A DNA stretch of 64,000 nucleotides, from assembly GCF_021535135.1 (NCBI RefSeq), contig NZ_CP091036.1, positions 930,001 through 994,000 on the forward strand, written 5' to 3'. Positions 23-63,342 of this stretch are shown piece by piece. A program made the translations under genes and the position numbers. The stretch comes from Antarcticibacterium sp. 1MA-6-2 (GTDB lineage: Bacteria > Bacteroidota > Bacteroidia > Flavobacteriales > Flavobacteriaceae). The stretch's first letter is position 1, and each line of letters begins with the position of its first letter. The notes under the pieces are model-generated. The model made no database searches. It was not told the origin of the DNA and saw only the letters and a list, made by a program, of their open reading frames with translations.

Positions 23-941
23 TCAGGAAAGTGGTTCAGGCGGGGGAGCATTCTTCTTTTTAAAGGGATCTTCGGGAAGTGGAATGAATTCTTTATCATC
101 TGTAGGAGGCAGAAGGATCTTTCCCTGTTTCCAATCTTCCTTAGCCTGTTCTATTCTCTCTTTTCTTGAAGAAACAAAATTCCACCAAATAAATCTTTCT
201 CCTAACGGCTCCCCTCCAAGAACCATTAGATCACAGTACTCGTTAGCAACTATAATGGGATCGCTACCTTCTTCAAATACCAGCATTTGCCCTTCGGTAT
301 AGTTAATGCTGTTTATTGCTAATGTTCCTTTTGCAATATAAATAGCTCTTTCTGGGTGTTTTTCCGGTAAGCCAAAATGCGCGCCCTTTTCCAGTTTTAC
401 ATGTAGATAAAAGAGAGAGGAATGTGTTTTAACATCATTTTGAAGACCAAAAGCCTCGCTTAAGCAATTAATCGCATCCATACAGCTTTATCTGTAAAAA
501 CAGGAAGTTTTTCCGGTTTGTAATTATGGAAACTGGGAGCATCTTCTTCATTCTTTTCCGGCAGTGCTACCCAGGTTTGGATTAATTCCAGAGAATTTGT
601 TGCTAATATTCCTGGATCTTCAAAACGTTCAGAATGTGATATTCCACTGCTTAAGCAGTCATCCAGTTAACTTCTCCCGGACGTATTACCTGATTAACAC
701 CTAAACTGTCTCTGTGAACAAGCTCTCCACTAAAGAGATAGCTTACGGTTGAAAGTCCAATATGAGGATGAGGCAAAACATCCAGCGAACTCTTTGTTTT
801 AGGATTAAGAGCCACAGGTCCGCCGTGATCCATAAATATAAAGGGACCAACCATCCTTTTTTGACGAAACGGTAAAATTCTTTTTACTTTCATCCCCTCA
901 CCAAGAGAAGCTTTTCTTGATTCAATTACGAGTTTCACCAT
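23..941 (-). CDS. Pirin family protein (frameshifted twice)
   Basis: Bicupin pirin-like protein of about 300 residues. The N-terminal piece (start at 941) carries the first cupin with [14 protein letters not shown] and ends in VNWMTA; the next frame resumes with GISHSERF, which supplies the usual His and Glu metal ligands. The C-terminal cupin contains [13 protein letters not shown]. Two motif-type indels break it: GCTTAAGC at 649-656, where homology expects Ala-Gly (GCTGGC), and GCTTAAGC at 458-465, where RLIAGEAFG is expected. Pirins are iron-binding cupins, some with quercetinase activity; the substrate here is unknown. The family call is firm. The two frameshifts are probably sequence errors. 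Confidence 0.85.
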
Positions 942-1205
942 TTAATTTTGATTATTTGTGGTAATGCAGTTTATATTCAATATCATTTAATCCTGTGGAA
1001 TAAATATATAAAGAGCTTATGAGAAATTGGATGTCCTTTATAAATTTAAACGATAAACGAATAAAATAGACCGGGATATCCATACAAGGGTAGCTCCCAC
1101 CTACTTCAGCTTTAAAATATTTTTTTGAAAATTAGAGTAGGAATAAAAAAAACTTAAAAAAGTGTGAATTATCTTTTTAATTGAAAAAGAATTTAGATCT
1201 TTGCC

Positions 1206-1216
1206 TAACGCTGTTA
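1206..1216. promoter_or_regulatory. Putative TetR operator 1 (upstream of tetR)
   Basis: The 11-mer TAACGCTGTTA is an imperfect palindrome ending 20 bases before the tetR start codon. It differs by one base from two copies at 1852-1862 and 3102-3112. Its placement suggests autoregulation by the adjacent TetR protein. Binding is inferred, not shown. Confidence 0.6.
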
Positions 1217-1236
1217 AATAGATTAATAGATTTAAA

Positions 1237-1830
1237 ATGGGAAGTAAGGAACGTATTTTACGATTGAAGAAAGAGACGAAGGAGAAGATACTGGAAGCTG
1301 CTTACCTTATTGTAAAAGAAGAAGGATGGAATGGCCTTAGCATGCGAAAAATAGCGGACAGGATTGAATATACTGCTCCAATTATCTATGAATACTATTC
1401 TAACAAAGAGGCTATCCTGAAAGCTTTGACTGTAAAAGGATTTATTTGCCTGGACGGACAATTAGCAATGGTTCAGGAAAAAATTGAAGATCCTACTGAA
1501 CAACTAGAAACCCTTTGGATGGAATTCTGGAGATTTGCTTTTGAAAATAAAGAATTGTACCAGGTTATGTTTGGTGTAGAAATATCTTGTTGTCGTCACG
1601 GGCTTTCAGAAGCAGAATCCCCACGAAACAGATTTATTAATGCCATAATGAAAGTAATGGAAGATAAAAATCCATCTGAAGATTTAGTCCGGGAAAAGTA
1701 TTTTACCTTTTTTTCAGTGATTCATGGTTTAATTTCAGTTAATCTCGTTGGAGCTGGACTTCCGTCTTCTTTAAATGATCAAATATTAAAAGATGCTATT
1801 AACGGAATAATTAAATCAATAAGCGATTAA
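1237..1830 (+). CDS. TetR/AcrR family transcriptional regulator
   Basis: 197 residues. The N-terminal TetR helix-turn-helix covers about residues 12-60 (KILEAAYLIVKEEGWNGLSM, then RKIADRIEYTAPIIYEYYSNKEAIL). The C-terminal half is a TetR_C-like helical ligand and dimer domain with three Cys near residues 115-120 (EISCCRH). It is a DNA-binding repressor, likely of the RND efflux operon starting at 3146. Support comes from three copies of the palindrome TAAC(A/G)CTGTTA placed just before this gene, before the gene at 1902 and before the efflux operon. The inducer cannot be told from sequence. The gene is intact and monocistronic or leads into 1902. Confidence 0.9.
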   Translation: MGSKERILRLKKETKEKILEAAYLIVKEEGWNGLSMRKIADRIEYTAPIIYEYYSNKEAILKALTVKGFICLDGQLAMVQEKIEDPTEQLETLWMEFWRFAFENKELYQVMFGVEISCCRHGLSEAESPRNRFINAIMKVMEDKNPSEDLVREKYFTFFSVIHGLISVNLVGAGLPSSLNDQILKDAINGIIKSISD

Positions 1831-1851
1831 ACTTTTTTTTGCCCATTTACT

Positions 1852-1862
1852 TAACACTGTTA
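1852..1862. promoter_or_regulatory. Putative TetR operator 2 (upstream of DUF2652 gene)
   Basis: A perfect 11-base palindrome, TAACACTGTTA, 40 bases before the start codon at 1902. It is identical to the copy before the efflux operon (3102-3112), so the cyclase-like gene and the pump are probably under the same TetR control. Confidence 0.65.
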
Positions 1863-1901
1863 GATATATAAACACGCATAGAAATATCAAAATATGGAAT
1901 T

Positions 1902-2552: not shown

Positions 2553-2589
2553 AATAACATTACAAACTTCAATTAAAAATATCTTTATT

Positions 2590-3036: not shown

Positions 3037-3050
3037 TTTGATATACAAAC

Positions 3051-4289: not shown

Positions 4290-7200
4290 ATGTTTAAAAG
4301 ATTTATAAGCAGGCCCGTTCTGGCAACAGTAATATCCATTTTACTGGTGATCGTGGGGGTTCTGGGACTTTATAGTTTGCCGCTCCAACAATTTCCTGAC
4401 ATTGCACCACTAAGCAGTCCAGGTACTTGCTCTGTATCCCGGAGCCAATGCAGAAACCTTAATTCGTTCGGTAGCACCTTCAATAGAAGAATCTATTAAT
4501 GGTGTAGAAAATATGAGCTATATGAGTTCTACTGCAAGCAACGATGGCACCCTCATAGTAACAGTTTACTTTAAACTGGGGACAGATCCCGATCAGGCTG
4601 CGGTAAATGTTCAAAACAGGGTGGCCCAGGCTACCAGCCAGTTACAGCAGAAGTAGTCCAGGCAGGAATAACAACCTCCAAACAACAAAACAGTTTGTTA
4701 ATGGTGGTCGACTTATATTCCGAAGACCCTGATGTTTATGACCAAACTTTCCTGGCTAATTATGCCCAAATAAATATTATTCCTGAAATTAAAAGAATCC
4801 CTGGGGTAGGTCAATCCCTGATCTTTGGAGGAAGTAAAGACTACTCTATCAGGATTTGGATGAATCCTGGTCAAATGGCTTCGTATAATATTACCCCCAA
4901 AGAAATTGTAGCTGCTATCCAGGACAAAAGTTTAGAAGCAGCTCCCGGGAAATTTGGAGAAAGCAGTGAGGAATCGTTTGAATATATAATTAAATACCAG
5001 GGAAAACTAAATGAAGCGAAGCAGTATGAGGAAATTATTATAAGGTCAAACGACGACGGTTCTATGTTGCGGCTTAAAGACGTCGCCAAAGTAGAACTGG
5101 GTGCCTATAGCTACGGAAATTTTACCCGCGTCAATGGTAAGGCAGGAGTTAACATTGCCTCTTTCCAGCTGGCTAGTTCCAACGCCAGTGAAATACAGGT
5201 GGCAATAAGCGAACTTATGGAGAAAGCCTCAAAAGATTTTCCTAAAGGGGTGAAATACCTCACATTATATAACACCAAAGATTCCCTGGACCAATCAATA
5301 AGTCAGGTAAAAACTACTTTAATTGAAGCATTTATTTTAGTGTTTATTGTAGTATTTCTATTTCTCCAGGATTTCAGGTCTACTTTAATCCCGGCAATTG
5401 CCGTACCTGTAGCAATTTTGGGGACCTTCTTTTTTATGATGCTCTTTGGTTTCTCTATTAATCTACTAACCCTCTTTGCATTAATTCTGGCAATAGGCAT
5501 TGTGGTAGATGATGCCATTGTTGTCGTAGAGGCAGTGCACGCAAAAATGGAGAATGAGCATCTACCTCCAAAGGAAGCTACCACTACTGCTATGAGCGAG
5601 ATTACGGGAGCCATAATCTCTATTACCCTGGTGATGGCGGCAGTATTTCTTCCAGTAGGCTTTATAGAAGGTTCAACAGGAGTCTTTTATCAACAATTCG
5701 CGTTTACCCTTGCCATTGCAATTATTATTTCGGCAATAAATGCCCTTACGTTAAGTCCTGCTTTGGCTGCTTTGTTCTTAAAAGATAAACACAGCAACGG
5801 AGAAGAACCTAAAAAGAAACTAACCTATAAAGAAAAGTTCTTTATAGGTTTCAATACAGGTTTTGATAGACTCACGAATAATTATGTGAAAAGCCTGGGC
5901 TTTTTGGTACGAAAAAAATGGTTGAGCCTTGGAGCACTTGCACTGGTAATCGCTGCAACTATTTTTATGGTAAATAGAACCCCTACTGGATTTATACCTT
6001 CAGAAGATCAGGGATTTATGGCTATTTCCTTATCCATGCTTACTGGTGCTTCCCTGCAACGTACACAGGAGGTTATGGAGGAAGTAGAAATCCTGCTGGG
6101 AGATTTGGAATCCAAGAAAACGTTGATGGGATTATCAGGCTTTAATATCCTTACCCAGTCATCAAGTCCTTCATCGGGAGTGGCATTTGTATTGCTGAAA
6201 CCAACCGAAGAAAGAGGCGAGATATCAGATATAATTATGAAATAATGGCCGTCGTAAATCAAAAACTTTCGAGCATAAATGGCGCCAGTTTCTTTGTTTT
6301 TACATTTCCAACTGTTCCCGGGTTTAGTAACATTGACGGTCTTGATATTGTCCTGCAGGACAAAACAGGAGGAGATTTACAAAAATTTAGTGCTATAGGA
6401 AATAATTTTATAGGAGAGCTTATGAAAAGGGAGGAGATAGCGGTAGCATTTACTTCCTTTAAATCAGATTATCCACAGTATGATCTTATCATTGATGAAG
6501 TAAAGGCCGCGCAATTGAAGGTAAACGTACAGGATATTCTGCAAACAATGCAGGCTTACTTCGGAAGTACCCAGGCATCAGATTTTAATCGTTTTGGAAA
6601 ATATTACAGGGTTATAGTACAGGCAGATAAGGACGCACGTACAGATATAAGCTCTATGAATGGCATTTTCGTAAAAAACAGGAACGGTGAAAAAGTACCT
6701 ATAACAACATTGGTAAGCCTGGAGCGGGTATACGGGGCAGAGAATATTTCAAGATACAATCTTTTTACATCAATAGGAGTGAATGCTATTGCAAGCCCCG
6801 GGTTTAGTTCGGGAGATGCAATACAAGCTGTAAGAGAAGTTGCGATGCAACAATTACCGGGTGGATATTCCTACGAATTTTCAGGAATGACCCGCGAGGA
6901 AATTGGTTCAGGGGGGCAATCTGTGTTGATTTTTATTTTATCCTTATTGTTTATCTATTTCCTTCTCGCAGCCCAGTATGAAAGTTACATACTTCCACTG
7001 GCAGTAATACTATCTATACCTACGGGTATCCTGGGAGTTTTTCTTGCAATTGGAATTACGGGAATCGAAAATAACATTTATGTACAGGTGGCTTTAGTAA
7101 TGCTCATAGGGTTACTGGCTAAAAATGCAATTCTTATTGTAGAATTTGCTTCACAAAAAAGGCGCAGTGGAAAGTCCATAGTAGAAGCGTCCATAGAAGC

Positions 7201-7478: not shown

Positions 7479-8891
7479 ATGAATAAAAAATCATATCTCA
7501 TTATAGCAATCCTGCTTTTACAGTTAAGCATTTCCTGTAAGACATCTATAGTTGAAAAAACCGTCCCTGCGGATCTTCCCTCTAAATTTATGGGAGAAAA
7601 AAATCCTGATTCTTTGAGTATTGGAAATCTTCAATGGAGGCAATTTTATAAAGACCCTCAATTAAAGAATTTGATTGACAGTGCTGTTGTAAGAAATAAT
7701 GATCTCCTGGAAGCGATGAAGAATGTAGAAGCTTCTCAACTCCTGCTAAAAAAATCGAAATGGGTGAATGTCCCTACTCTAAATGCTGAAGTTACAGGTA
7801 CCTATACTTATTTTTCAGATAATAGTCTCAATGGATTAAGTACTGCCACTTTTTTAGAACAGAACCATTTGGAAGATTATACCGCTCAGGGAGTTTTATC
7901 CTGGGAGGCTGATATTTGGGGAAAACTGAAAAATCAAAAACGGAAAGCCCTGGCTGAATATATACAGACGGACGAAGTGAAAAAGGCAATTCAAACCTCT
8001 ATAGTGGCACGAGTAGCCGAAAGCTACTTCAATTTACTTATGCTGGATGCACAGTTAGAAGTAGCCAAAAAAACCTGGAGCTTAGAGAGCGAACAAATGC
8101 AATTATTGCCTTACAATATGAATCGGGCGCGGTAACCTCCCTTGCCAAAAAACAAACAGAAGCCCTACGTCTACAGGCTGCTCAGCTCATTCCTCAACTT
8201 GAACAACAAATAATTATTCAGGAAAATGCATTAAGTATTTTAACTGGAAATTTTCCTTCAGAAATGAAAAGAGGAGAACTAAATAGCCTGCTTTCTCCAA
8301 TGGAAGAAGTACAAACGGGAGTACTAAGCAGAACTCTTACAATTAAGGCCCGATATTCTGGCTGCTGAATTTAAGGTAAGAGCTGCACAGGCAAGTGTAG
8401 GAATTACCAAGGCTTCCCTCTATCCTTCTTTACGCATTACAGCAGCTGGAGGGGTTAATGCATTTATAAGAAGTAACTGGTGGAATGTTCCCGGCTCCCT
8501 ATTTGGGATGGTAGCAGGTAGTGTTGGACAACCATTGCTTAATGGGAAACAACTTAAAACAGATTACAAAATTGCAATTATTGAGAAGGAAAAAACAGAA
8601 CTCCAATTCCGGCAAAAAGTGTTGGAAGCGGTACAGGAGGTGTCAAATGCTTTGGTAAGTATAGAAAAGCTTCAAAACCAGCAACAGGTTATTATGGAAC
8701 GTGAGCAGGTTCTGAATGAATCTGTTAGTGATGCAGATATGCTCTTTAAAAATGGAGTTGCGACCTACTTAGAAGTAATTACAGCCCAAACCAATTTGTT
8801 ACAAAGTCAGCTGGAACTCGTGGCTATCGAAAAAAGTGAAATGGAAGCAAGAATTGAGTTATATCGTGCTTTAGGAGGAGGATGGAAATAG
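7479..8891 (+). CDS. Outer-membrane efflux channel, TolC/OprM family (frameshifted)
   Basis: About 470 residues of NodT/OprM type. It starts four bases after the pump gene. The N-terminus is a lipoprotein signal (LLQLSISCKTS). The first repeat has NNDLLEAMKNVEASQLLLKK and ends in the broken LQYESGAVTSLA region. The second repeat has RPDILAAEFKVRAAQASVG and ends with NGVATYLEVITAQTNLLQ. Breaks: a slip near 8108-8113 of unclear cause, and ACTAAGC at 8323-8329 where GVPAELL demands ACCAGC. It forms the exit duct for the adaptor and pump upstream. Confidence 0.9.
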
Positions 8892-14325: not shown

Positions 14326-14774
14326 TTATTCTTTTATGTACTTGTTTTTGGCTTTATCAAATTCTTCTATGTAAGCCAGGTCTTCCCTGCCGGAGTTTAA
14401 TGCGGCAGAAATTAACTGCAGGCTTTCTTTTGCTTTTTCATATGCTTCCTGGGGGTCTTCTATAGTCCCTAAATCCTGCTGATTTAGATCTTCCTGCCCA
14501 TTATTAAGTCCCACAAATAATCCTACTGCCAGGATAATACTTGCTGCAATCCCGGTGAAGGCATATTTCTTTCTATGCGATCTCACTTTAATCTCTCCCG
14601 GATAAGAAGCAGAATTTTCTCTTGCTACATAAGAAAATAGCAATATATATTCTTCTAAATGTGCTTAAGCACTTTTCCAGAGGTAAAATATTCCCGCAAA
14701 AGCTTTTCTTCAGCAAGGCTGGTGTTCCCATCCTCATATTTTTGCAGAAGAGCTTCTATTTTAGTTAATTCCAT
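14326..14774 (-). CDS. Membrane anti-sigma-like protein (frameshifted)
   Basis: About 149 residues after frame repair. Start ATG at 14774 gives MELTKIEALLQKYEDGNTSL and then EEKLLREYFTSGKVP, the short N-terminal sigma-binding module typical of Bacteroidota anti-sigma factors. A single membrane helix follows (KYAFTGIAASIILAVGLFVG), then a periplasmic tail (QEAYEKAKESLQLISAALNSG). The frame is broken by GCTTAAGC at 14663-14670, where GKVPAHLEEY expects GCCAGC. The start overlaps the end of the sigma gene by 14 bases, showing coupling. It probably holds the sigma factor at the membrane. Confidence 0.75.
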
Positions 14775-15392: not shown

Positions 15393-16845
15393 ATGAAATT
15401 ATTAAAGCTTTTTTTACTGGCCCTACTTGTAAGTAGCTCTACTATTTCTTGTTCTAAAGATGAAGATGACATAGGTCCTCAGGCAGTAAAACCGGGTGAT
15501 AAGAGAGATTTTACAGTTGAGAACTTTATTTATAAAGGAATGAATTTATATTATCTCTATAAGGCTGATATTCCGCAATTAGCAAATGATTATTTTGACA
15601 CGCAGTCCCAACTGAATGATTTTATTGATAACTACCCTACTCCCGAAGATTTTTTCTACGATGGAGTTGTAGCATCACAAGATAGGTTTAGCTGGATTGT
15701 AGATGATTATATAGAGCTTGAAAATTCTTTCGCGGGAATAACTAAAACTTCGGGAATGTCTTATGTCCTTAGTTATTACTCTGAAGATTCAAATAATATT
15801 TTTGGAGTGGTGCGATTTGTTGAACCCGGAACTTCTGCTCAGGTTGCAGGTGTTAAGAGAGGAGATATCTTCACAAAGGTAAATGGGGAACAATTAACTG
15901 ATACTAATTACGGGGCGTTGTTAGGCGGTGATAGCTATACCCTTAATATCGCCAGTATTGAGGAAAACACTATTATAGATTCAGGAGAAACAGTAAATCT
16001 TACAACTGCAGTTTATCAATCAAATCCCGTTTACATAGCTAAAACTTTAACCATTGACGGTAAAAAGATTGGGTACCTAATGTATAATAGTTTTACAAAT
16101 GAGTTTGATGAACAATTAAATACTGCCTTTGGACAATTTAAAGCAGATAATGTTGAAGAATTAATTCTTGATCTTCGTTACAACAGCGGTGGAGACGTTA
16201 GAACTGCCACAGATCTTGCAGCCATGATTACTTACCAGTTTCCGGGACAGGTATTTATGAAAGAAGAATGGAATGCTGAACTTCAGGAATATTGGGAAGA
16301 AAATGATCCTAATGGATTGGTCAATAAATTTAATACCACTTTAAGAAGTGGAACACAAATAAATAGTTTGATGCTGGAGAGAGTTTATGTATTAACTTCC
16401 TCTCGATCTGCTTCTGCAAGTGAGTTAATAATTAATGGTTTGGATCCTTATATTGATGTAGTTCAGGTTGGAGATAAAACAACTAAGCAAATTTACGGCA
16501 TCCACTACCTTATACGATTCACCCAATTTTAGGAGACAAAATGCAAATACGAAACATACTTATGCTATTCAGCCGTTAATATTAAAATCTGTAAACAAGA
16601 ATGGAGTTTCAGATTATATTAATGGTTTAAGTCCTGATCTTGAACTTAAAGAAAATATTAGAAACTATGGAATACTGGGTGATCTTGACGAACCTTTATT
16701 AAGAGCTGCTCTAAATCTTATTCAGGAAAATAGAGTTTCTGTTCCTCAATTTCAAACCTACAAGTTTGCTGGTGAAGATGGAATGTTTCAACCAACTTAC
16801 CAGAGAATGTATATACACGATATTCCACAAATTCCTGTTGACTAG
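15393..16845 (+). CDS. S41 family peptidase lipoprotein, copy 1 (frameshifted)
   Basis: About 484 residues. Lipobox STISCSKDED, so surface or periplasmic and lipid-anchored. It has an N-terminal cap, a PDZ-like domain (GTSAQVAGVKRGDIFTKVNG), then the tail-specific protease core: ELILDLRYNSGGDVRTATDL and SSRSASASELIINGLDPY, holding the catalytic Ser of S41 proteases. Broken at 16482-16488 by ACTAAGC, where the paralogue at 17030 reads TTGKFQAS (here ACTGGC expected). The C-terminal part (SDYINGLSPDLELKEN) aligns with copy 2. The two genes are a tandem duplication 184 bases apart. Confidence 0.88.
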
Positions 16846-18585: not shown

Positions 18586-19634
18586 TTAGTTATTAAAGTA
18601 AAATCCGTTTGGTGCTACTCCAACTTCGATTTTTTGAAGAAGTTCTCCTGCTGTAGAATACACTTCTACAAAACTATTTGAAGCAAAATCACTTAAGCAT
18701 CTGCAACATAGACTCTCCCATCTTCTACCTCAAAACCATACATTATGCCCCATTCTGAATTGCTTTCATATTGAAAAAGAGGCTCTGCTGCTAAGTTCTG
18801 TGGCATCTGTGGAAATAGAATATACTCCTTTTCCAATTGTGTAATATATAGATTGTCCTTCAACATCAATTTTACTAGCGCCTGCCAATCCTTCCGCAGA
18901 AATAATTTGGGATTCTACCTCTCCACTGTTAAGATTGATCACCTGTAGGGTTCCACTGCTTAAAGTGTATAAACGATCTCCCACAACTTTTATAGAGTTA
19001 AGGCCAGCCGCAACCTCTATAGTATTTACCACCGTGTTTGTAGCAGGATTAAGGACGCTTATCGAATTACCTGAACCAAAGGAAGAATTTTGCACATAAA
19101 GCAGCTCCTTAGCTTGAGTTATATAGGATGCTGTATTGTTGATTTCAATTGTTTCTTCAACTTCCAGGGTTTCCAAATTAATGACGGCCACAAAATCATC
19201 TGTATTAGAATCAAAACTTGCAAGGTTGGTTACATAAGCTTTTCCGTTAATTATAGTACCATAATAAGGTACCTGCAAATCACTTTCTACTCTTCCAACC
19301 AGTTCAAAGGTGTGCCTGTCTACAACTGTAATCATATTTGATCCGTTAGAAATTATATATGCGTTGTTCTCATCAAAGAACATAGATTGAAGGTACTTCC
19401 CAAGATCATCACCTTCGCTCACTGCCGCAAAAATTTCCTGTTCTACAGTTTGTAAATCATCACTTACAAATGTAACTGTACTTAAGCAGCCTGTGAACCC
19501 TCATTTAGCACAAAAAATCCATTGGAATATTCGCTGCCTTCTTCAGGTAATTCTACAATATCATCGTCACTGCTACAGGAGTTTAATAAAAACGCTCCAA
19601 GCATTCCGAATAAAAATGATCTGGTAATCTTCAT
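18586..19634 (-). CDS. Beta-propeller lipoprotein, BtuG-like (frameshifted twice)
   Basis: About 348 residues after repair. The N-terminus (KITRSFLFGMLGAFLLNS, then CSSDDD) is a lipoprotein signal with an acidic export-type tail, suggesting surface exposure. The rest has YncE-type propeller repeats: NGFFVLNEGSQ, NAYIISNGSNMITVVDRHTF, AYVTNLASF, LLYVQNSSFGSGNSISVLNP, GDRLYTLSSGTLQVINL. It lies 3 bases downstream of btuB under the cobalamin riboswitch, the position of BtuG, the high-affinity B12-binding surface propeller of Bacteroides. The function is inferred from fold and place. Breaks: ACTTAAGC at 19480-19487 and at 18691-18698; both fit a lost CCAGC. Confidence 0.72.
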
Positions 19635-19637: not shown

Positions 19638-21479
19638 TTAAAAATTAAGGTTTAGGTATATATTAAAGTTTATGCCGGGCATCCAGCGATTTTCCATACT
19701 TTGATAGGCTTCATCAAAAAGATTATTTACACGCGCACCCAGTCTGTAATTTGCCATATTTCCAAAACCATAGGAAGAGGCTATATTTGAAACTGAGTAA
19801 GAAGACAGATTATAGCGAGTATCATTGTTTGACCGGGTAAAAACTTCACCGTTGAACATAAGTTGGTAATTCACCTCCCATCGCTTGTTTTTATATTCCA
19901 GGGAAGCAGTAGTTTTATGAAAAGGCACATAAATTAACTGTTGGTAAGTGTCTCGGTTTTCTGAAACTGTATAAGCATAGGTAGCATTAAGGTTTACATA
20001 CTGTTGATCTCCAATTTTCCTGTTCCACCTCATTAGTCCTTCAAGCCCATAGGTTCTAACTTCTGCCACATTTCTGGGTCTCCACTCACCGTTACTTCCG
20101 GGAATCCACTGGATCATATTTTTAATATCTATATAGTAAGCAGTAAGATCTAAACCTATTCCTTTCCAGGTAAAGCTGTTTCCAATTTCCCCTTGCAGAG
20201 AAACTTCCGGATTTAAAACTGTATTTCCAGATGTTGTCCAGTAGAGATCATTATAGGTTGGGATTCGAAAATTTCGGGAGACGTTCAGCTTAAGAATATA
20301 AAATTCTGAAAATTTATAGCGCCCTCCTGCTGAAAAAAGGAAGGGACTTTTATAATTATTGGTGCTTTCCTTCCGCAAACCTGCCTCATAAGTTAAGTGG
20401 TCATTAGGCTAGGTGTTTCATTAAAAGCGCAGCGGAAAATATATTCCTGTTGTTCTCTCCAATGCTACTTCCCTCACCCATGGTGTAGGTGTTCGTTAAG
20501 ATTGCATTGAACTGGAACTTTTCCAAACCTGAATATTCGAGGTCATATTTGCCAATAATAGTTTTTGCCTCTCCAAAAGAATAACGGTTTGAATCTATGT
20601 TCTCGTAGTAACGGTAATTTTCATCCAAAAAAGCAATCCTGGTAATAGATTTAAATTTCTGTAACCTGCTCTCCCACTCCAGCAAATTACGATTATTGAA
20701 GTTTTGATACTTTGTCCTCGTTTCTGAAGGCCTTATTAAGGAAAAATGTCTTTCACTGTCGAAAAGTTCCCCGTAATATTTAAAAATATTGCGATTGTTA
20801 AACCTAGTATGCAATCCCAAAGTTTATGGAATTACTGTAGAACTGTCCGTTAAGATTTTTCCTGGCGTTTGGCCATTCATAATCGTTATCTGAACTATTA
20901 TGCGCTCCTGCCACAGATATACTCCATTTTTCCCAACCTGCCTTTAGCCTGTAACGAGCATCAAGAGTATTAAAGCTTCCGTATTCAAGAAAAAGATCAT
21001 TTTCCAGTCTATCCCGAAAGGACAAATTTGTATTTAAATGTACGGTTCCTCCAATTGCCCCAGTGCCATAGGCAACACTTCCTCCGCCGCCCCTAACTGC
21101 TATCTCATCAAAGCCTGCAGCATTAATAGTATTAAAATCTATTTGCCCGTTAAATTGTGAATTAATATTGATCCCATTCCACAAAACAGCCGTTTGTGAT
21201 GCAGTAGTACCCCTAAAAGCTTAGTGAAGAAACCATCCCGTTACCGTTTTCCTTGAAGAAAATAGGAGTATTAAAATTTAACAAAGAAGTTAGTAAAGGA
21301 CGGGTATGTTTGGTAGCCGAATCAGAAATTTTAATTACTGTTTGGCCCGTAGAAAAGTCTTTAAGACGGGTGTCTACAAGAAAGACTTCCTCAAGTACTG
21401 TAATAGAATCCGGTTGTGCAATTGCAGGGAATGCAAATACAAGTGCCGTTAAGGTAAAAAAGTAGTATACGTTTTTCAT
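19638..21479 (-). CDS. btuB: TonB-dependent vitamin B12 receptor (frameshifted three times)
   Basis: About 613 residues, BtuB size. A signal peptide (YFFTLTALVFAFPAIAQ), then a plug domain (SSPAFRGTTASQTAVLWNGI after repair, AVRGGGGSVAYGTGAIGGTV), then a 22-strand-type barrel ending in an aromatic C-terminus (NFNIYLNLNF). The upstream cobalamin riboswitch on the same strand and the adjacent BtuG-like and btuFCD genes identify the substrate as cobalamin. Breaks: GCTTAGT at 21219-21225 (expected ACCAGC on the minus strand, SPAF), CCTAGTA at 20803-20809 (expected ACCGG, AYRFNN), and GCTAGGT at 20408-20414 (expected ACCAGC, KHQPNDHL). Confidence 0.9.
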
Positions 21480-41293: not shown

Positions 41294-43024
41294 TGACACA
41301 GATAAAATCGGAAATACTTACAAAAGCTAAAGCATGGCTCTCTGATCATTTTGATACTGAGACTCAACAGGAAGTAAATAACCTCATTGAGAATCATCCA
41401 AAAGAACTGGAAGAAAGTTTTTATAAAAATGCGGCTTTTGGTACTTAGTGGAATGCGTGGCATTATGGGGGTTGGACCAAATAGAATAAATAAATATACT
41501 CTCGGTCGTAATTCTCAGGGTATTTCAAATATCCTGAAAAAAGAGTTTCCTGATGAGCAACAAAAGGTCGTTATAGCTTACGACTGCAGGAACAACAGTA
41601 AAGAGCTGGCCCAGGTAGTGGCAAATGTTTTTTCTGCCAATGGAATAAAAGTATATCTGTTTTCAGAACTTAGACCTACTCCCGAGCTTTCGTTTGCTGT
41701 TCGACATCTCAATTGTCACTGCGGAATAGTTCTTACTGCAAGCCATAATCCGCCGGAATATAATGGATATAAAGTATATTGGCAGGATGGAGGACAGTTA
41801 GTTCCTCCTATGGACAGCAGAATAATTAATGAAATAGAAAGTATAGATTTTTCTGAAATAAATTACAACACCAACGATGATCTTATAGAATATATTGGAG
41901 AGGAAGTAGATAAGGCTTTTATTGAAGCTTCTGTAAAAAATGGAAGTTTTAATACTTCTTCTGAAGCTAAAGACAATTTAAATATTGTTTTTACCTCCCT
42001 TCACGGTACCTCGATTACCACTAATCCCGATATTCTTGAGAAAGCCGGATATAAAAATGTTTTCCTGGTAAAAGAACAGGAAAAACCTGATGGAAATTTT
42101 CCCACCGTAAAATCTCCAAATCCCGAAGAGCCTGAAGCCATGGAAATGGCTATGAAACTTGCCGAAGAAAAAAATGCCGATATAGTGATTGGTACAGATC
42201 CAGATGCAGACCGATTGGGAATTGCAGTAAGAGATCTGGAAGGAAAACTCATTCTTCTCAATGGAAACCAAACCATGATCATAATGAGTTGGTTCCTCCT
42301 GGAGCAATGGAAAAAGCAAAACAAATTAAACAAAGATACCTTTGTTGCTTCCACCATAGTTTCTACTCCAATGCTAAAAAGTATTACTGAAGATTATGGC
42401 GCTCAATACCTTGAGGTTCTAACTGGATTTAAATGGATAGCCAAGCTTATAAAAGACAACCCACAATTAAATTTCATTGGTGGTGGTGAAGAAAGTTTTG
42501 GATATATGGTAGGTGATTTTGTAAGGGATAAGGATGCAGCTACGTCTACCCTTCTTGCCTGTGAAATTGCCGCTCAAATGAAAGCCCAGGGAAGCTCTGT
42601 CTATCAAAAACTCCTGGAACTATATGTTGAATATGATCTTTACAGGGAGGAACTAATTTCCCTTGTCAAAAAAGGAATTGAAGGGGAAGCAGAAATAAAG
42701 CAGATGATGATCGATCTAAGGGAGCAGCCACTTAAAGAGATTGATGGAGAAAAAGTTGTACTTATCGAAGACTATCAATCTTCAGTTTCAAAAAATCTCC
42801 AGGACAATACAGAAGCTTCCATAGACATTCCCAAATCTAATGTGCTTATTTATTACACCGAAGCCGGAACAAAAGTTGCGGCAAGGCCCAGTGGTACAGA
42901 GCCAAAGATCAAGTTTTATATAAGTATAAGCGATGAGCTTAAAGCTGTAGAACAGTATGAGGAAATTAACGGGCAACTGGCTGAAAAGATCTTAAGAATT
43001 AAAAAAGATCTAAAGGTAGATTAA
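41294..43024 (+). CDS. Phospho-sugar mutase (phosphoglucomutase/phosphomannomutase), frameshifted
   Basis: About 576 residues. The true start is the ATG at 41294 (MTQIKSEILTKAKAWLSDHF), running to AFGT, then after the break GGMRGIMGVGPNRINKYTLG. Active-site Ser loop TASHNPPEYNGYKVYW, metal loop GTDPDADRLGIAV, sugar loop GGGEESFGYMVGDF, phosphate loop RPSGTEPKIKFY. The family interconverts hexose 1- and 6-phosphates. Broken at 41443-41449 by ACTTAGT (expected ACTGGT, Thr-Gly before Gly-Met-Arg). A candidate TATTTTTG box is at 41265-41272. Confidence 0.92.
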
Positions 43025-47664: not shown

Positions 47665-48456
47665 TGGACATACAGGAATATATATCCTCCGGAATTTTAG
47701 AATTGTACGTCTATGGTTCTCTTTCAGAACCAGAAAGCCGGGAAGTGACACGTATGGTCAGGGATTACCCCGAAGTTAAAGCTGAAGTAGAAAAAATAGA
47801 AGCTGCACTTCAAAGTTTATCAGCAGCCGCAGCACCATCAGATCCCAAACCTCTATTAGCTCCTTCCCCTGTGGATGGTGCAGGAGGCAAAGAAGTGGTA
47901 AAGATGGCACAAAGCAAAACGAATTGGCTAAGCATATTTAGGATGGGCAGCAAGCTTCCTTTTTTTAATAGGTCTTTTTGCTCTATATAATCAAAACCAA
48001 CATTTAAAAGAATCTTTACAGGCTCTTGAACAAAGGAATAACGAAATAGAAAATGAAATTGCAGATGCCCGAAGAGATGTCACAAAGAAGCAGGAATTAT
48101 TGAATGTGCTTAGAGATAAAAACATTATAGAAGTTGATCTTGGCGGCCAGGATATAGCTCCTGATGCTTATGCCACTGCTTATTGGGATAAAGAGCAAAA
48201 TATCACATTTATCGATGCAAAGAACCTTCCCGAACCGCCCAGAGGAATGGTTTACCAGGTTTGGTCATTAAAATTAAGTCCCCTTACTCCTACCAGTCTG
48301 GGGCTTCTGGAAAATTTTAAAGAAGATGAAAACAAGATCTTCAGGCTACAAAATTCCCAACCTTCTGAAGGTTTTGGGATTACCTTAGAGCCTGCCGGAG
48401 GAAGTGAATCCCCTACTTTAGAAAAACTCTATGCTCTGGGAACAATTTCGTCTTAG
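47664..48456 (+). CDS. Anti-sigma factor, RskA-like (frameshifted)
   Basis: About 264 residues. N-terminal sigma-binding part (YISSGILELYVYGSLSEPES), a membrane helix (AAASFLFLIGLFALYNQ after repair), a coiled coil (NQHLKESLQALEQRNNEIEN) and a periplasmic RskA domain (VDLGGQDIAPDAYATAYWDK, EPPRGMVYQVWSLKL, FGITLEPAGGSESPTLEKLY). Broken at 47927-47933 by GCTAAGC; reading GCTGGC gives NWLAYLGWAAASFLF, the expected helix start. It regulates the ECF sigma at 47134. Confidence 0.86.
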
Positions 48457-50494: not shown

Positions 50495-51525
50495 TCACCT
50501 CTTAAATTTAAGTTTTGCCAGCCTGTGTTTTCCTGCAGCATAAGCAATACTGTCGTTCAAAAACCTGATGGTATAAAAGCCCTCGTCACTCAGTTTTATC
50601 CATTCTCCCCCTGTGTCCCCCGAATAATATATACCTGAATTCCCTACTGAAACAATTTCTTTACTCTCACCTGCCGGAACGTATCTTACACTACTCATAT
50701 ACCCGGGAGGCTTTGAATCGCTAATAAGAGCCCAGGTCCTGCCTCCATCTACGGTTATTGCTTTATTGGCTTTATTAGCCTCAGGATTTAAGTAATCTCC
50801 TCCTATTATTATTCCGTTGTTTTCGTCATAGAAATCAATACTATATCCTCCTGTAGTGGGAGTTCCATGGATCAAAGGAGTGTCGTAAACCTCCCAGCTG
50901 TTCCCTTTATCTGGAGAATAAAAAACCCTTGACTTAATACCACCTGAAAGGATCCATGTATGGTCTCCCACAACAGCAATATTCGAGTTGCTCGCTGCAA
51001 ATGCTGCTTCTCCTTTAGCTGCTTTCGGCAAAAGGCCGCAAGAAAGTTTTTTCCAGCTCTCTCCCCCATTCCTGGTAATAATTATTGACAAACAGTCTTC
51101 TGTAGGATCCCCCATAGCTATTCCTTCTTTAGCGTTCCAAAAGGTCATGGAATCATAGAATACCTTTTCGTTTTCCTCCTTATAAACCAGCTCCATGCTT
51201 CCGTTTTCACTAAGTTTTATATAAAAGTGCAGGGTTTCCCACGCTTAGCATAAAAAAGTCAGATGAAGTACTGGCAACGGCACGAAATTCCGGGGAGATG
51301 GAATCAAACCTTTGCTTATTCGTTCGTACTACACCTGCATTAGAGTCGTATAATCCATAAGTTCCATAATTACAGCAAATGCTAAATCTTCTCCCATTAA
51401 TTCAATGGCACGTATACTAATAGTGTCTTCCAGTAAATCTTCAATTTCTACATTAGTAAATCCTTTTTTTCTTCGGAACTACAACCTATTATAAATAAAA
51501 TTGATACCAGGTATATTGCTTTCAT
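50495..51525 (-). CDS. YCF48/BNR-type beta-propeller lipoprotein (frameshifted)
   Basis: About 344 residues after repair. Start ATG at 51525; signal with lipobox (ILFIIGCSSEEKK). Propeller blades with the BNR-like pattern: ASTSSDFFMLSVGNPALLYK, WNAKEGIAMGDPTEDCLSI, TRNGGESWKKLSCGLLP, SPDKGNSWEVYDTPLIHG, VDGGRTWALISD. It resembles photosystem II stability factor YCF48-like proteins found outside phototrophs. Breaks: a T7 run at 51464-51470 (one base short) and TTACAGC at 51370-51376 (one C lost from ACCAGC; AFAGNYGTYG expected). Role unknown. Confidence 0.78.
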
Positions 51526-51594: not shown

Positions 51595-52810
51595 ATGCGC
51601 TTACACAGGAATTTAGTCTTTGCAACCATTGACGCACTCTCAGAAATTTTTAATGAAGGAAATTATGCCGATAAGGTTATAGAAAAAACCTTGAAGAGGG
51701 ACAAACGATGGGGCTCCCGTGACCGTAGCTTTATTGCTGAAACCACTTATGACATTGTTAGATGGAAGCGATTATATGCTGAAATTGCTGAAGTAAAAGC
51801 TCCTTATTCCCGGGAAAATCTTTTCAGAATGTTTGCTGTTTGGGCGACTTTACGCGGAGTGGAATTACCGGACTGGAAGCAGATAGAACCTACACCGAGC
51901 AGAAGGATTAAAGGAAAATTTGATGAACTTAGCAAAATAAGAAAGTATAGAGAATCTGTGCCAGACTGGCTGGATGAGTTGGGGGTAAAAGAATTGGGCG
52001 AAAAGGTTTGGGAAAAAGAGATACATGCTCTTAACCAACAGGCGCTATTGTTCTAAGAACCAACACTCTTAAAATTACGAGGGATAAGCTGCGTAGCGTA
52101 CTTAAAGATGAAGGTATTGTCACCGAGCTAGTAAAAGGTTTTCCTGAAGCTCTTCAACTGGAAGAGAGAGCAAATGTTTTTAAGACTGAAGCTTTTAAAA
52201 ATGGATTTTTTGAAGTTCAGGATGCTTCCTCACAACTGGTCGCTAATTTCCTGAATGTTGAGCCGGGAATGCGCGTTGTAGATACCTGTGCTGGTGCTTA
52301 GGTGGAAAGACATTGCACATAGCCGCTATAATGGAAAATAAAGGCCAGATCATAGCCACAGATATTTATGAGAATAAGCTAAAAGAATTAAAGCGACGGG
52401 CAAAACGAGCCGGGGCACATAATATTGAACCACGGGCAATTGATTCCACAAAAGTGGTGAAGAAATTGTATGGTACTGCAGACAGGGTTTTAATTGATGC
52501 TCCCTGCAGTGGCCTTGGAGTCTTAAGCCGTAATCCCGATGCTAAATGGAAACTACAGCCGGAGTTTATTGAAACAATAAAAATAACCCAGTCTCAAATT
52601 CTTGATCAATATTCCCGAATAGTAAAATCGGGAGGAAAAATGGTATACGCGACCTGTTCAGTTCTACCTTCAGAGAACCAGGAACAGGTAGAGAAATTCC
52701 TGAAAGGAGATGCAGGAAAAGACTTTAGCTTTATAAAGGACCAGAAGATTCTCTCATCAGAATCAGGTTTTGACGGATTTTATATGGCACTACTGGAGAA
52801 GAAGGAATAG
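51595..52810 (+). CDS. RsmB/NOP family rRNA cytosine-C5 methyltransferase (frameshifted twice)
   Basis: About 404 residues. An N-terminal NusB-like helical domain (RLHRNLVFATIDALSEIFNE, KRDKRWGSRDRSFIAETTYD), then SAM motif I VVDTCAGAGGKTLHIAA after repair, DAPCSGLGVLSRNPD with the first active Cys, and VYATCSVLPSENQEQVEKFL with the second. It methylates cytosine in rRNA. Breaks: near 52043 (GCGCTATTG, one C short for QQAPIVLRTN) and GCTTAGGT at 52296-52303 (expected GCTGGT, Ala-Gly in the SAM loop). Confidence 0.9.
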
Positions 52811-53604: not shown

Positions 53605-56600
53605 ATGATCCTCTTCTTCGGAACCCAAACCTCCCGGGTTTATGCAGTGCAAACGCACTCTGCACTTACAGCCTCGGATATTTCAAAATTAAACTGGCTT
53701 TTTGGCAACTCCCAATATCTCAATAAATCTGCACTGGCAGATTTTTTTGTTGGTCCGCGTGCCGCAATGATCTCCCCCTGGAGCACAAATGCGGTGGAGA
53801 TTACACAAACTATGGGAATAAGAGGAATTTTGAGAATTGAGGAATTTTTAAAAGTAGATTCGAAATTCACCAATTTTGATCCAATGCTCTCTCAAAAGTT
53901 CAATGGTCTTGATCAGGATATTTTTACTGTTAAGACTGATCCACATCCGGTTATTGAAGTGGAAGACATAGCTGCTTTTAATAAACAGGAAGGTTTAGCT
54001 TTAAATGATGAAGAAGTTGAGTACCTGCAAGATCTGTCAAAGAAGGTGGAAAGAAAACTTACAGATTCTGAAGTCTTCGGATTTTCCCAGGTTAATTCTG
54101 AGCACTGTCGGCACAAAATTTTTAATGGAAGGTTTGTCATTGATGGAGAAGAAAAACCTTCCAGTTTATTCAAGCTTATCAAAAAAACTTCCGAAGTAAA
54201 CCCGAACGAAATAGTTTCAGCTTATAAAGATAATGTCGCTTTTATAAAAGGGCCGAGAATAGAACAATTTGCACCAAAATCTGCAGATGTACCAGATTAT
54301 TATTATTCCAAAGACTTTGAGTCTGTAATATCCCTAAAAGCGGAAACTCATAATTTTCCGACAACTGTAGAACCTTTTAATGGTGCTGCTACAGGAAGTG
54401 GTGGAGAAATAAGAGACAGGCTTGCCGGAGGAAAAGGTTCACTTCCACTTGCAGGAACTGCTGTTTATATGACATCTTATTCGAGACTGGAAGAAGACCG
54501 CGACTGGGAAAAAGGAGTAGCCGAAAGAGAATGGCTTTACCAAACACCTCTGGAAATTTTAATTAAAGCATCAAACGGAGCATCAGATTTTGGAAACAAA
54601 TTTGGGCAGCCTTTGATAACAGGTTCTGTACTCACTTTTGAACACAAGGAACACAATCGTACCCTTGGTTTTGATAAGGTAATTATGCTGGCAGGCGGAG
54701 TGGGATATGGAAAAGCCGATCAGGCAATTAAGGACGTTCCGAAGAAAGGGGATAAAATAGTTGTACTGGGTGGTGAAAATTACCGCATTGGTATGGGTGG
54801 AGCCGCAGTTTCTTCTGCAGACACCGGAGAATTCAGCAGCGGAATTGAATTAAACGCGATTCAACGTGCAAATCCCGAAATGCAAAAACGCGCTTCAAAC
54901 GCTATTCGTGGAATGGTGGAAAGTGACCATAATCCTATTGTTTCCATTCATGATCACGGAGCGGGCGGACATTTAAACTGCCTTAGCGAACTTGTGGAAG
55001 ACACGGGTGGTAACATAGATCTTGACGCACTTCCTGTAGGTGACCCTACCCTTTCTGCCAAAGAAATTATTGGCAATGAATCCCAGGAGAGAATGGGACT
55101 TATTATTTCTGAAAAAGATATGGAAATTCTTAGAAGAGTTTCTGAAAGAGAAAAAGCCCCTATGTACAGCGTTGGTGAGGTTACCGATGACCGCAACTTT
55201 AAATTCGAGAGCAAAACCAGTGGAGAAAAACCTATGGATCTTTCTTTGGCCGATATGTTTGGAAGTTCTCCTAAGACCGTTATGGCCGATAAAACGGTAA
55301 AAAGAGATTATGAAGGCCTGGTTTATCAATCCTCAAAAATTCCAACTTATCTCGAGCAGGTCCTTCAACTGGAAGCCGTGGCCTGTAAAGATTGGTTAAC
55401 AAACAAAGTTGACCGTTGTGTTAGCGGCCGGGTTGCAAAACAGCAAACTGCTAGGTCCCCTGCAGTTACCATTAAATAACTGTGGAGTGATGGCTTTGGA
55501 TTTTAATGGTAAAGAAGGTGTTGCGACCAGTCTTGGCCACTCCCCTGTTTCGGCTCTTATAGATCCAGTAGCGGGATCAAGAAATTCTATTGCCGAAGCA
55601 TTAAGTAATATTGTTTGGGCACCTTTGGAAAAAGGATTAAAATCTGTTTCACTTTCTGCTAACTGGATGTGGCCCTGTAACAATGAAGGAGAAGATGCCA
55701 GGTTATATGAGGCTGTAAAAGGAGTTTCAGACTTTGCAATTGCCCTCGGAATTAATGTTCCTACAGGTAAAGATTCTCTTTCTATGAAACAAAAGTATAA
55801 AGAAGGAGATGTACTTGCCCCGGGAACTGTCATTATTTCGGCTGCAGGACATTGTGATGATGTTACAAAAGTAATTGAGCCTGTATTACAAAAGGACGGG
55901 GGTGCGATTTACTATATAAATCTTTCCCGGGACGATTTTAAATTAGGTGGTTCTTCTTTGGCTCAGGTATTAAATAAAGTGGGCAATGAAGCACCTACTA
56001 TTAAAGACGAAAAGAAATTTGCAGAAGCTTTTAATAACATTCAGGCCCTTGTAAAACAGGAAATGATAGTGGCTGGTCACGATGTTGCTTCAGGAGGATT
56101 AATTACGACACTTTTAGAAATGTGTTTTGCAGATGTTAATTTGGGGGCAGACATTGATCTTTCAGAATTAAATGAGAAAGACCTGGTGAAGCTTCTTTTT
56201 AATGAAAACTGCGGAATTGTTTTTCAGGCAAAAGATAATCTTGCTGAAAGATTTTTAAAAGAGAATGGTATAGACTTCTTCCGGATTGGGACAGTAACAG
56301 AAGGAAATTCGTTAAACATTAAGAACGGCGAAGAATCCCTGAATTTTAATATTTCTGATTTAAGAAATACGTGGTTCAAAACTTCCTTCCTGCTTGACCA
56401 AAAACAAAGTGGAATAGATAAAGCGACAGAAAGATATAAGAATTACGCGCTGCAGCCGCTGCAGTTTATTTTTCCTGAAGGTTTCACGGGACAACTTCCC
56501 GACATTGATAAATCTGCACCCAGGATAAAAGCGGCTATAATTAGAGAGAAAGGATCTAATAGTGAACGAGAAATGGCCAGAGCGATGCATTTCGCGGGTT

Positions 56601-57562: not shown

Positions 57563-58205
57563 ATGGCAGAAATTAAAATTGAAAAGAAAAAACCAGTATG
57601 GCCTTGGATATTACTGGCTTTAATAATCTTAGGTATTATTCTATATTTTGTTTTCGCAGACAATGATAACGAAATAGATGACGTAGACGAAAATAATACT
57701 GAGCAAATTGAGGATACAACCTATACCAGTACACAAACAAGTGCAGGTGAAGTTGGAACATTGGCTAAGTACCACAAGTGATACATTAAATGGAGATAAT
57801 GTTTCTAATTATATTGCTCATGTAGGAGATAAAAGTAGAATGGGTATAGATCATGAATATACTAACAATGCTCTTATTCATCTTGTTGAAGCAGTTAATT
57901 CTAAAGCAAGTGAACTCAACGTTAATGTGAGTACAGATATGCAGTCAATAAGACAGGATGCTCAACAAATTACTCAAAATCCTCAGGCTACAAACCACGC
58001 AAATAAAATTAAAGATGCAGGGACAAAGCTGGCCGATGTTTTGAAAAAAATTCAGGAACAACAGTTTCCCAACCTGGCAGGTGATGTAGAAGAAGTGAAG
58101 ACAGCTGCCAATAATATTAAGCCGTCTGTTCAAACTTTAGAACAAAAAGATCAAGTCAATAAATTCTTTGATGAAGCGGCCGATGTGCTTAAAAAAATGA
58201 GCTAA
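57563..58205 (+). CDS. Single-span membrane protein with helical exterior domain (frameshifted)
   Basis: About 213 residues. A basic start (EIKIEKKKPVWPW), one membrane helix (ILLALIILGIILYFVFADND), an acidic linker (NEIDDVDENNTEQIEDTTY), then after the break a helical domain (TSDTLNGDNVSNYIAHVGDK, LIHLVEAVNSKASELNVNV, KIKDAGTKLADVLKKIQEQQ). Broken at 57764-57770 by GCTAAGT (expected GCTGGT in GTLAGTTSDT). No family recognised. It lies 20 bases before the PRC-barrel gene and is likely in one operon, perhaps a stress response unit. Confidence 0.68.
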
Positions 58206-59226: not shown

Positions 59227-59227
59227 T

Positions 59228-61399: not shown

Positions 61400-61431
61400 C
61401 CAAAAATTTCTCTGTCTCTAATAGATTATAA

Positions 61432-62396
61432 TCAAATTATACCTATATTCTTAGAATGCAGTAAAGCTTTGTCACTGCCTTTAAAGTAACAGGTAGAGAC
61501 ATTTAGACTTTCAATATTTTTAAGTACCGAATAAACTTTAATATTTTCCTTTCTTCCTGTTTGACGCAAATAAACAGCCTTTATATTCATTGGAAAAATC
61601 TTGCAAATCCTTTCATAAATAAAGGCATCTTTTTGAGAATCATCTCCCAACAATACATATTGCAAATGAGGATAAAAAGCAATTATGTCCTTAATCTTCT
61701 CAAATTTATGATCGTGACTGCCTCTTCCTGTCAATAGAAAATCTGAAATACTAGTTTTTATCTTTTTCAGTTTGATAACAGCTTTAGGCAAATTGTGCAT
61801 TTTGGCGAAATCATTTATAAAACCATAAAGATTCCATTCACTGCTGGAGACGTAGAAAAATGAATTTGATGCTTCTTCACTATCCTGTCCAGAAATACTC
61901 AAATGCTGTAATGTTGTACAACATCGTCAAAGATCTTCCTTTTATTAATATTCTTGAGGAGCATAACATAAAGCTTTTTAAAAAAGCTGTTACTATGAGA
62001 AATGAGAAAAGTATCATCAATATCTGATATTATTCCCACTTTACCGGGAAAAGGCTTGAGGAGTTCTCCTGTTTCTATTATTCCAATATCATTTATTTTA
62101 CAACTAACGCAGTATTCATGCCACCCGCTTTTTAGCTCCTCATTGAAGGGAATTTCAAATCGAAAATATCCATCATCTAATGTTTTAGTAGTAACTTCAA
62201 TATTTTTAAATTCCAGTTTTACAGTGATGTTCTGGAGAGGTTTAATCCTAAACATATGAATGATTGAAAAGGCATGTTTAATACCGCGCCTGTCTGTCCT
62301 GTATTTGTCGGGAGCCCAGGATTCAAAAACATGTCCAAAAACTACTAATTGATTTTCATTTACGTAGCCCCTGTATAATTTTAAATCTAATTTCAC
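61432..62396 (-). CDS. App1-like phosphatidate phosphatase domain protein (DUF2183), frameshifted
   Basis: About 321 residues. N-terminal beta-rich part (NENQLVVFGHVFESWAPDKY, GYFRFEIPFNEELKSGWHEY), then the HAD-like App1 domain: VGIISDIDDTFLISHS with the DxDxT catalytic motif, FFYVSSSEWNLYGFINDFA, FLLTGRGSHDHKFEKI, YVLLGDDSQKDAFIYERI. Yeast App1 removes phosphate from phosphatidate. Broken at 61905-61910 (GCTGTA; one base lost from GCTGGT, expected HYQHLSISGQD). Diverges from a diacylglycerol kinase-like gene 63 bases away. Confidence 0.85.
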
Positions 62397-62459
62397 CTTT
62401 GGTTTTTGTTAACTCACAATATTCTCCAAATTAATTAATTTTAAAGACAAATTGAAGAA

Positions 62460-63342
62460 ATGGCAGACATAAAGAAGGTTTTGCTCGTGGTAAATCCAAT
62501 TTCCGGAGCTGTAAATAAATCTGATTTGATAAAGGAGATAAAAAACGAAATAATTAAGAGAAATCTTACTCTATTTATTTTCGAGACCACAGGAGAAGAG
62601 GACACTTTTAATTTAAATAATAATATTGCAGAATTGCAGCCTGGTAGGATACTGGTAGTTGGAGGTGATGGTACTATAAAAATTGCTGCTGAAGCACTTA
62701 AAGGAAAGGATATTCCTATAGGCATCATACCTGCTTAGTTCTGCTAATGGACTGGCCGTGAATCTTAACCTGCCATCCAGTCCTCAGGAACAGATTGAAG
62801 TCGCACTTGATGCAAATGTAAAAGGCATGGATATCATTCTCATTAATGATGAGTATTGCCTGCACATGAGCGATTTCGGAGTAAATGCTGAGCTGATAAG
62901 GAAATACGAGCATTCAAAAATAAGAGGAAAGATAGGTTACTTCCTAAATTCCATTCCTACTCTTGTGCAGAGTAATTATCCTTTTCAGTTCCAAATTAAA
63001 GCCAATGGACAGGTACTTCAAAAAGAAGGAATTCTTTTGGCGATTGCAAATGCCAAATCCTATGGAACAGGTGCTACCGTTAATCCCAATGGAAAGATAG
63101 ATGATGGCTTCTTTGAAATTTTAGTTTTTAAAAATTTTGATTTTCTGGAAATTCTTAAAACCCTGCGGAACGAGGTGGAACTTAATCCCGATTTTATTGA
63201 AATAATTTCTACTCAAAATGCCCGTATAAGTTGCAAAAACCCCGTTGCCTTTCAGGTAGATGGGGAGTATATAGGCAAAAGAAAATTCGTCGAGGTAAGT
63301 ATTTTACCTCATAAAGTTAAGATAGCTTCTCCCCTGCAATAA
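62460..63342 (+). CDS. Diacylglycerol kinase-like lipid kinase (YegS/DagK family), frameshifted
   Basis: About 294 residues. Catalytic domain: VLLVVNPISGAVNKSDLIKE, ILVVGGDGTIKIAAEALKG with the GGDGT motif, and after the break GSANGLAVNLNLPSSPQEQI. C-terminal beta-sandwich with GILLAIANAKSYGTGATVNP and DDGFFEILVF. Broken at 62733-62739 by GCTTAGT (expected GCTGGT in IIPAGSANG). Members phosphorylate diacylglycerol, sphingosine-like lipids or related alcohols. Divergent from the App1-like gene, so the two could run opposite reactions. Confidence 0.88.

Follow-up and report, generated by a model that had tools for sequence, protein, structure and literature searches.

Why do so many reading frames break off and resume in another frame within one stretch of the Antarcticibacterium sp. 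1MA-6-2 genome, and which DNA word do these places share? The stretch, hereafter the window, is a 64-kb segment covering bases 930,001–994,000 of a single-contig genome of 4,383,004 bases (NZ_CP091036.1). An earlier note on its sequence had listed 24 gene-breaking insertions or deletions, assigned them to the motif CCAG(C/T), and proposed that a modified cytosine had been misread in long-read consensus, perhaps because of a methylation system of unlisted specificity. We found that the word that is missing and rewritten is RCCGGY (R, purine; Y, pyrimidine), and we consider it highly probable that 5-methylcytosine (5mC) in RCCGGY was misread in a nanopore-type consensus and that the broken genes are sequencing errors, not mutations.

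The loss of RCCGGY is apparent from simple word counts. The window contains 140 CCGG words but not a single RCCGGY. When we extended the analysis to 264 kb, i.e., the window and the next 200 kb of the genome, RCCGGY was found three times, versus 251 times in 280 kb of the relative G011. Among all NCCGGN words in the 264 kb, the four RCCGGY words occur 1, 2, 0, and 0 times and the other twelve 36–68 times each, and the same four words are found 72, 72, 39, and 68 times in 280 kb of G011. Counts of k-mers against relatives also showed that ACCGGC, ACCGGT, and GCCGGC are emptied. At the scale of the whole genome, depletion was measured by comparing ACCGGC with its reversed word as a control in 249 genomes of the family. 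This genome has 19 ACCGGC for 1038 copies of the control, the lowest ratio of the 249. The sole RCCGGY copies in the 264 kb, at 1072143, 1153597, and 1181224 of the contig (G000:C1), are possibly unmethylated sites or correct calls. RCCGGG/CCCGGY words are somewhat less frequent than in G011 (200 in 264 kb versus 329 in 280 kb), and there may be a weak effect at RCCGGB, RCCGGG being at most mildly reduced.

Homology was examined with a frame-aware aligner, by which proteins of relatives were compared with the window and the next 200 kb. These proteins came from five same-genus relatives and from the first 20 loci in a list of relatives based on one conserved protein, by which the nearest are mostly Gillisia and Christiangramia and the strain is placed as a Gillisia-group flavobacterium. 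A first alignment set used 161 of 686 candidate open reading frames (ORFs), omitting those with <45% identity or in a region already four deep, and a second set used 358 of 933, omitting those with <50% identity or in a region eight deep. A stricter filter dropped breaks with <10 aligned codons or <40% identity on either side, and breaks ≤25 nt apart were pooled, which reduced 62 breaks to 53 distinct ones. Since synteny with G011 is lost past ~140 kb, the homology tests were limited to 106 kb of the 264 kb, mainly in the first 140 kb, and the first 10 kb of the window are scarcely covered by the relatives' stretches. Among aligned positions, after removal of those where a gap touched the word or the flanks were weak, RCCGGY was retained in 0 of 161 cases, the lowest value among 134 words of the R-four-Y type with at least 40 positions. 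For the neighbouring words RCCGGR and YCCGGR, retention was 42/295 and 21/147.

The breaks themselves carry a common rewritten form. All 24 places listed in the earlier note read R-C-x-G-Y, with the central CG of RCCGGY replaced, by TTAA, TTA, or TAA in 18 of them. In full, x is TAA at 7 sites, TTAA at 6, TTA at 5, A at 2, TAG at 2, TTAG at 1, and T at 1, the three sites where x is one base being five-base short forms that are common by chance and weak on form alone. We therefore scored a strict long form, R-C-(TTAA/TTAG/CTAA/TTA/TAA/TAG/CTA)-G-Y, counting a break if it lay within 8 nt. This form was found at 29 of the 53 distinct breaks, versus 1.5% of random positions in the covered 106 kb. 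An initial count that included five-base forms (33/53, with a background of 14%) was discarded in favor of the strict one. At the 29 strict-form breaks, at least one relative has RCCGGY in 11 cases and another CCGG word in 10, the two groups overlapping. In the 264 kb there are 155 strict rewritten words, compared with 88 in the 280 kb of G011; this surplus of about 70 does not yet include in-frame changes. Genome-wide, RCTTAAGY occurs 356 times here versus 63–222 times in 15 genus relatives of 2.2–4.4 Mb.

That genes are broken at all 24 places was borne out in part. Homology to Gillisia-group relatives revealed a frame break at 16 of them, several from one relative only, and 12 of the 24 recurred under the stricter flank filter with the other relative set. 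Of the remaining eight, five lie in the scarcely covered first 10 kb, and three (16483, 18692, and 19481) showed no break upon frame-aware alignment to the relatives' proteins. The alignments added one break that had been overlooked, at 51209, which is backed by eight of eight relatives. The genes hit by rewrites include purL, encoding phosphoribosylformylglycinamidine (FGAM) synthase, and mtaB, both with matches above the NCBIfam cut-off, together with rsmB-like and phosphohexomutase-like genes whose matches are below it.

Table 1. Rewritten sites in the window (window coordinates), Arg-facing sites in the joined 264 kb, and genes of the restriction–modification locus (coordinates within locus L083)
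Feature	Position	Strand	Reads	Basis or remark
Rewritten RCCGGY	458..465		GCTTAAGC	Form alone
Rewritten RCCGGY	649..656		GCTTAAGC	Form alone
Rewritten RCCGGY	4409..4415		ACTAAGC	Form alone
Shortened RCCGGY	4644..4648		ACAGC	Form alone; chance-common short form
Rewritten RCCGGY	8323..8329		ACTAAGC	Form alone
Rewritten RCCGGY	14663..14670		GCTTAAGC	Form and homology break, both filters
Rewritten RCCGGY	16482..16488		ACTAAGC	Form; no break by homology
Rewritten RCCGGY	18691..18698		ACTTAAGC	Form; no break by homology
Rewritten RCCGGY	19480..19487		ACTTAAGC	Form; no break by homology
Rewritten RCCGGY	20408..20414		GCTAGGT	Form and break, one relative
Rewritten RCCGGY	21219..21225		GCTTAGT	Form and break, one relative
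Rewritten RCCGGY	24298..24305		ACTTAAGT	Form and homology break, both filters
Rewritten RCCGGY	26067..26073		GCTAAGT	Form and break, both filters; RCCGGY in 1/2 relatives
Rewritten RCCGGY	32583..32589		GCTTAGT	Form and break, both filters; CCGG, not RCCGGY, in relatives
Rewritten RCCGGY, mtaB gene	36763..36769		GCTTAGC	Form and break, both filters; CCGG in no relative
Rewritten RCCGGY	40102..40108		ACTAAGC	Form and break, one relative
Rewritten RCCGGY, phosphohexomutase-like gene	41443..41449		ACTTAGT	Form and break, both filters; RCCGGY in 3/8 relatives
Rewritten RCCGGY	47927..47933		GCTAAGC	Form and break, one relative
Rewritten RCCGGY, not in earlier note	51209..51215		ACTAAGT	Form and break, both filters; RCCGGY in 1/8 relatives
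Shortened RCCGGY	51372..51376		ACAGC	Form and break, both filters; chance-common short form
Rewritten RCCGGY, rsmB-like gene	52296..52303		GCTTAGGT	Form and break, both filters; RCCGGY in 3/8 relatives
Rewritten RCCGGY, FGAM synthase (purL) gene	55450..55456		GCTAGGT	Form and break, both filters; RCCGGY in 1/8 relatives
Rewritten RCCGGY	57764..57770		GCTAAGT	Form and break; stricter filter: one relative
Shortened RCCGGY	61905..61909		GCTGT	Form and break, both filters; chance-common short form
Rewritten RCCGGY	62733..62739		GCTTAGT	Form and break; stricter filter: one relative
Arg-facing sites (by eye)	73694, 91644, 102315, 107502, 121564, 129373			Opposite Arg codon in G011
Ambiguous site (by eye)	105497			
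Putative restriction endonuclease	L083 381-1460	minus		359 aa; scores as type II restriction enzyme in PADLOC
C5 methyltransferase	L083 1438-2622	minus		394 aa, intact; DNA_methylase match
vsr	L083 2996-3415	minus		139 aa

Could the modified and misread word nevertheless be CCAG(C/T), as first proposed? A Listeria strain with GCTGG-centred errors is in print (PMC10687267). One CCAGY word can also be put in at the listed sites, in several phases without a change in the encoded residues, and a relative has a CCAGY word near 3 of the 29 strict-form breaks. However, RCCAGY is not depleted, with 414 in 264 kb versus 427 scaled from G011, or 285 scaled from a second relative set in which all CCAG words run lower, and it is retained at 57 of 266 gap-free aligned positions. 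Nor does CCAGY predict the base to the left of the long forms, which is R in 21/21, and it leaves the loss of RCCGGY unexplained.

The encoded residues are most telling in the CGG-codon phase, in which CCGG, CCAG, and CTGG words give Arg, Gln, and Trp, respectively. There, existing RC·CAG·Y words (dots mark codon boundaries) face Gln in 12/22 cases and Arg in 1/22 in relatives, and RC·TGG·Y words face Trp in 23/26 and Arg in 0/26, which indicates that these words are ordinary sequence. By eye, six sites outside the window stand opposite an Arg codon in G011 in this phase, as RCCGGY predicts (Table 1). What misled the earlier assignment is that, in some phases, the encoded residues do not distinguish RCCGGY from its one-base variants: RCCGGY and RCTGGY both give A/T-Gly, and CCG and CCA both give Pro. 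The pattern of CCAGC pairs across the genome was uninformative. On the grounds of absent depletion, retention at 57 of 266 aligned positions, and residues that match those of relatives, we rejected CCAGY as the motif, which we regard as extremely improbable.

Rewriting is not limited to frame breaks. RCT·AGY words are opposite Gly in 7/11 places versus 2/27 for RCA·AGY, and R·CTA·GY words are opposite Pro in 4/9 versus 0/12 for CTC, 1/59 for CTG, and 0/42 for CTT. These excesses reveal a further class, CG to TA, in which the frame is kept. One-sided changes (CG to TG or CA) were not visible in the informative phases; in the A/T-Gly phase, CG to TG would be silent and escape notice. Both bases of the central dinucleotide tend to be altered, a pattern that misreading of the cytosine on each of the two strands would produce.

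We then asked whether the genome encodes an enzyme that might modify RCCGGY, a search that the earlier note had called for. There is one DNA_methylase (m5C) match in the genome, in a restriction–modification (R-M)-type locus at about 3.945 Mb, outside the window. This C5 methyltransferase adjoins a gene for a putative restriction endonuclease (REase), with vsr close by, so that an NmeDI-like gene set is present (Table 1). Among 120 matches listed, one relative that is 66% identical, P0175, is annotated as modification methylase NmeDIP (annotation only). In the best 2 of 518 matching plasmid records (53 and 51% identity), the neighbour of the methyltransferase gene encodes a Cfr10I/Bse634I-family enzyme, as a PF07832 match confirmed. 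The putative REase has no match in the PDB sequences or in the NCBIfam or Pfam copy searched, and its precomputed domain is PF27126.

Another enzyme or another mark, e.g., N4-methylcytosine or a larger base, might act on RCCGGY instead. In its favor, there are several further methyltransferase-type matches in the genome, and the insertion-rich errors look stronger than those published for 5mC, as far as the available text of those reports goes. However, a genome search for an m4C-type enzyme with the PF01555 model (N6_N4_Mtase) gave no match, and the remaining matches are only to the N6_Mtase and Eco57I models (seven each, partly overlapping). We take these to be adenine-type families, and they are not expected to act on RCCGGY. 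Since the relatives of the C5 enzyme independently point to RCCGGY, we view a different enzyme or mark as unlikely.

It might also be argued that the rewrites are true mutations, RCCGGY having been erased by a strain-specific process such as avoidance of restriction or misrepair of deaminated 5mC. Restriction avoidance and 5mC deamination are real, and some members of the family may avoid the word strongly. In G039, a draft genome of the same family in ~80 contigs, ACCGGC is at ~0.10 of the reversed control, the second-lowest ratio, and the genus mate G267 is normal; true avoidance of ACCGGC is possible in G039. The surplus of RCCAGY over the second relative set could also be invoked, although all CCAG words are raised in that comparison. 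However, deamination yields RCTGGY/RCCAGY, which show no excess over G011 and encode the residues of relatives in informative phases, and avoidance would not account for base insertions in purL, mtaB, and rsmB-like genes, whose breaks are hard to accept jointly as true knock-outs. G173, the only other of the 249 genomes in which the methyltransferase has a close homologue (63% identical), carries this homologue with its REase and has an ordinary ACCGGC count (616 versus 859 for the control), which suggests, from this one genome, that the word can persist where such a locus is present. True mutation is therefore very unlikely in our view.

From these observations, we infer the modification, its chemical type, the platform, and the writer as follows. 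The strain would methylate cytosine, most likely to 5mC, on both strands of RCCGGY, the writer probably being the C5 methyltransferase of the NmeDI-like R-M locus. The assembly would come from native-DNA long reads without effective correction, and the platform, to judge only by the kind of error, is most likely nanopore. A basecaller and a polisher unaware of the modification would call T(T)A(A) or a variant of it in place of the central CG, by which nearly every RCCGGY would be lost from the consensus. Length-changing rewrites would break frames, while CG to TA would keep the frame and alter residues. The errors are largely tied to one motif, with RCCGGY emptied and the 12 other NCCGGN words not, alongside homopolymer breaks and a few unexplained ones. 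The central idea of the earlier note, a motif-bound error due to a modified cytosine, is thus well supported by the loss of RCCGGY and the R-C-x-G-Y forms, and no unlisted specificity is needed, RCCGGY being already known for NmeDI, Cfr10I, and VchM. Breaks at an A8 and a T7 run (window 49131 and 51461) are ordinary homopolymer errors and fit an uncorrected long-read assembly.

Several observations weigh against a misread 5mC in RCCGGY. First, the strict form is missing at 24 of the 53 breaks. Among these are homopolymer runs, variant or short forms, and alignment effects at gene ends; a few others are unexplained, including window 30241 and 52046, where five of six and eight of eight aligned relatives show a break without an RCCGGY form or a long homopolymer. 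Second, in a looser scan of 215 places with RCCGGY in a relative, the word was kept at 0, a listed form was present at 38, and no listed form was present at 177, which we consider mostly ordinary divergence. Third, other CpG-rich words are also poorly retained (RGCGCY, the next lowest, 3/90; RCGCGY, 1/32), so part of the low RCCGGY retention is ordinary divergence. Fourth, RCCGGY contains CpG, and CpG 5mC is often included in basecaller training sets, which makes a near-total failure a little surprising. Finally, 21 of the 24 listed sites are insertions, a share biased by the selection of frame breaks, and modification errors are mainly substitutions in the available text of PMC10687267 and PMC12506013. 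A mark bulkier than or different from plain 5mC would explain the T-T/A-A insertions and a near-total loss beyond C to T, but we hold it to be improbable. Elsewhere in the window, inspection by eye showed a cluster of regulator and efflux-type genes with several frame breaks (1237-7474) and, near 3340, a frame break seemingly without an RCCGGY form.

Taken together, word loss and rewrites allow a methylation specificity to be deduced from assembled sequence when no reads are at hand. This assembly is an unreliable basis for gene content, pseudogene counts, and sequence typing, and the same word-loss test can flag further affected public assemblies.

Both the motif-bound modification artefact and the RCCGGY specificity are known. 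Among published examples of the former are Neisseria nanopore assemblies in which 5mC sites show C/G to T/A errors (PMC12506013), a Listeria strain whose errors are tied to a motif (PMC10687267), and Dcm sites with consensus errors (PMC6591954). We met no description of an RCCGGY-linked nanopore error in a small search of the open-licence literature, within the text available. Like these modification-mediated errors, those described here are bound to a probable methylation motif, affect both strands, and survive consensus. In contrast to the published sets, which as far as seen are mainly substitutions, a six-base word is lost almost totally here and many insertions of 1-2 bases occur; the near-completeness of the loss and the number of insertions are what is unusual.

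As for the specificity, NmeDI of Neisseria meningitidis recognises RCCGGY and cuts around it (PMC4081073), and its locus, which includes VSR and is listed as m5C, was unseen by single-molecule real-time (SMRT) sequencing and seen by MspJI cleavage (PMC7973814). The locus described here resembles it in having C5 methyltransferase, Vsr, and REase genes and probably in the word RCCGGY, with kinship through the NmeDIP annotation. It differs in that RCCGGB has also been cited for M.NmeDI (PMC7973814), whereas RCCGGG is at most mildly reduced here. Cfr10I targets RCCGGY as well (PMC4081073), and the 51-53% identical methyltransferase relatives adjoin PF07832 enzymes of the Cfr10I/Bse634I type, but the putative REase of this genome has no match in the Pfam copy searched, PF07832 included, and its precomputed domain is PF27126. 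Anabaena M.AvaIX has the specificity RCCGGY (PMC8112702), and VchM of Vibrio cholerae is an RCCGGY 5mC methyltransferase (PMC4654547), which shares the word and the mark with the system proposed here but, in contrast to it, is an orphan.

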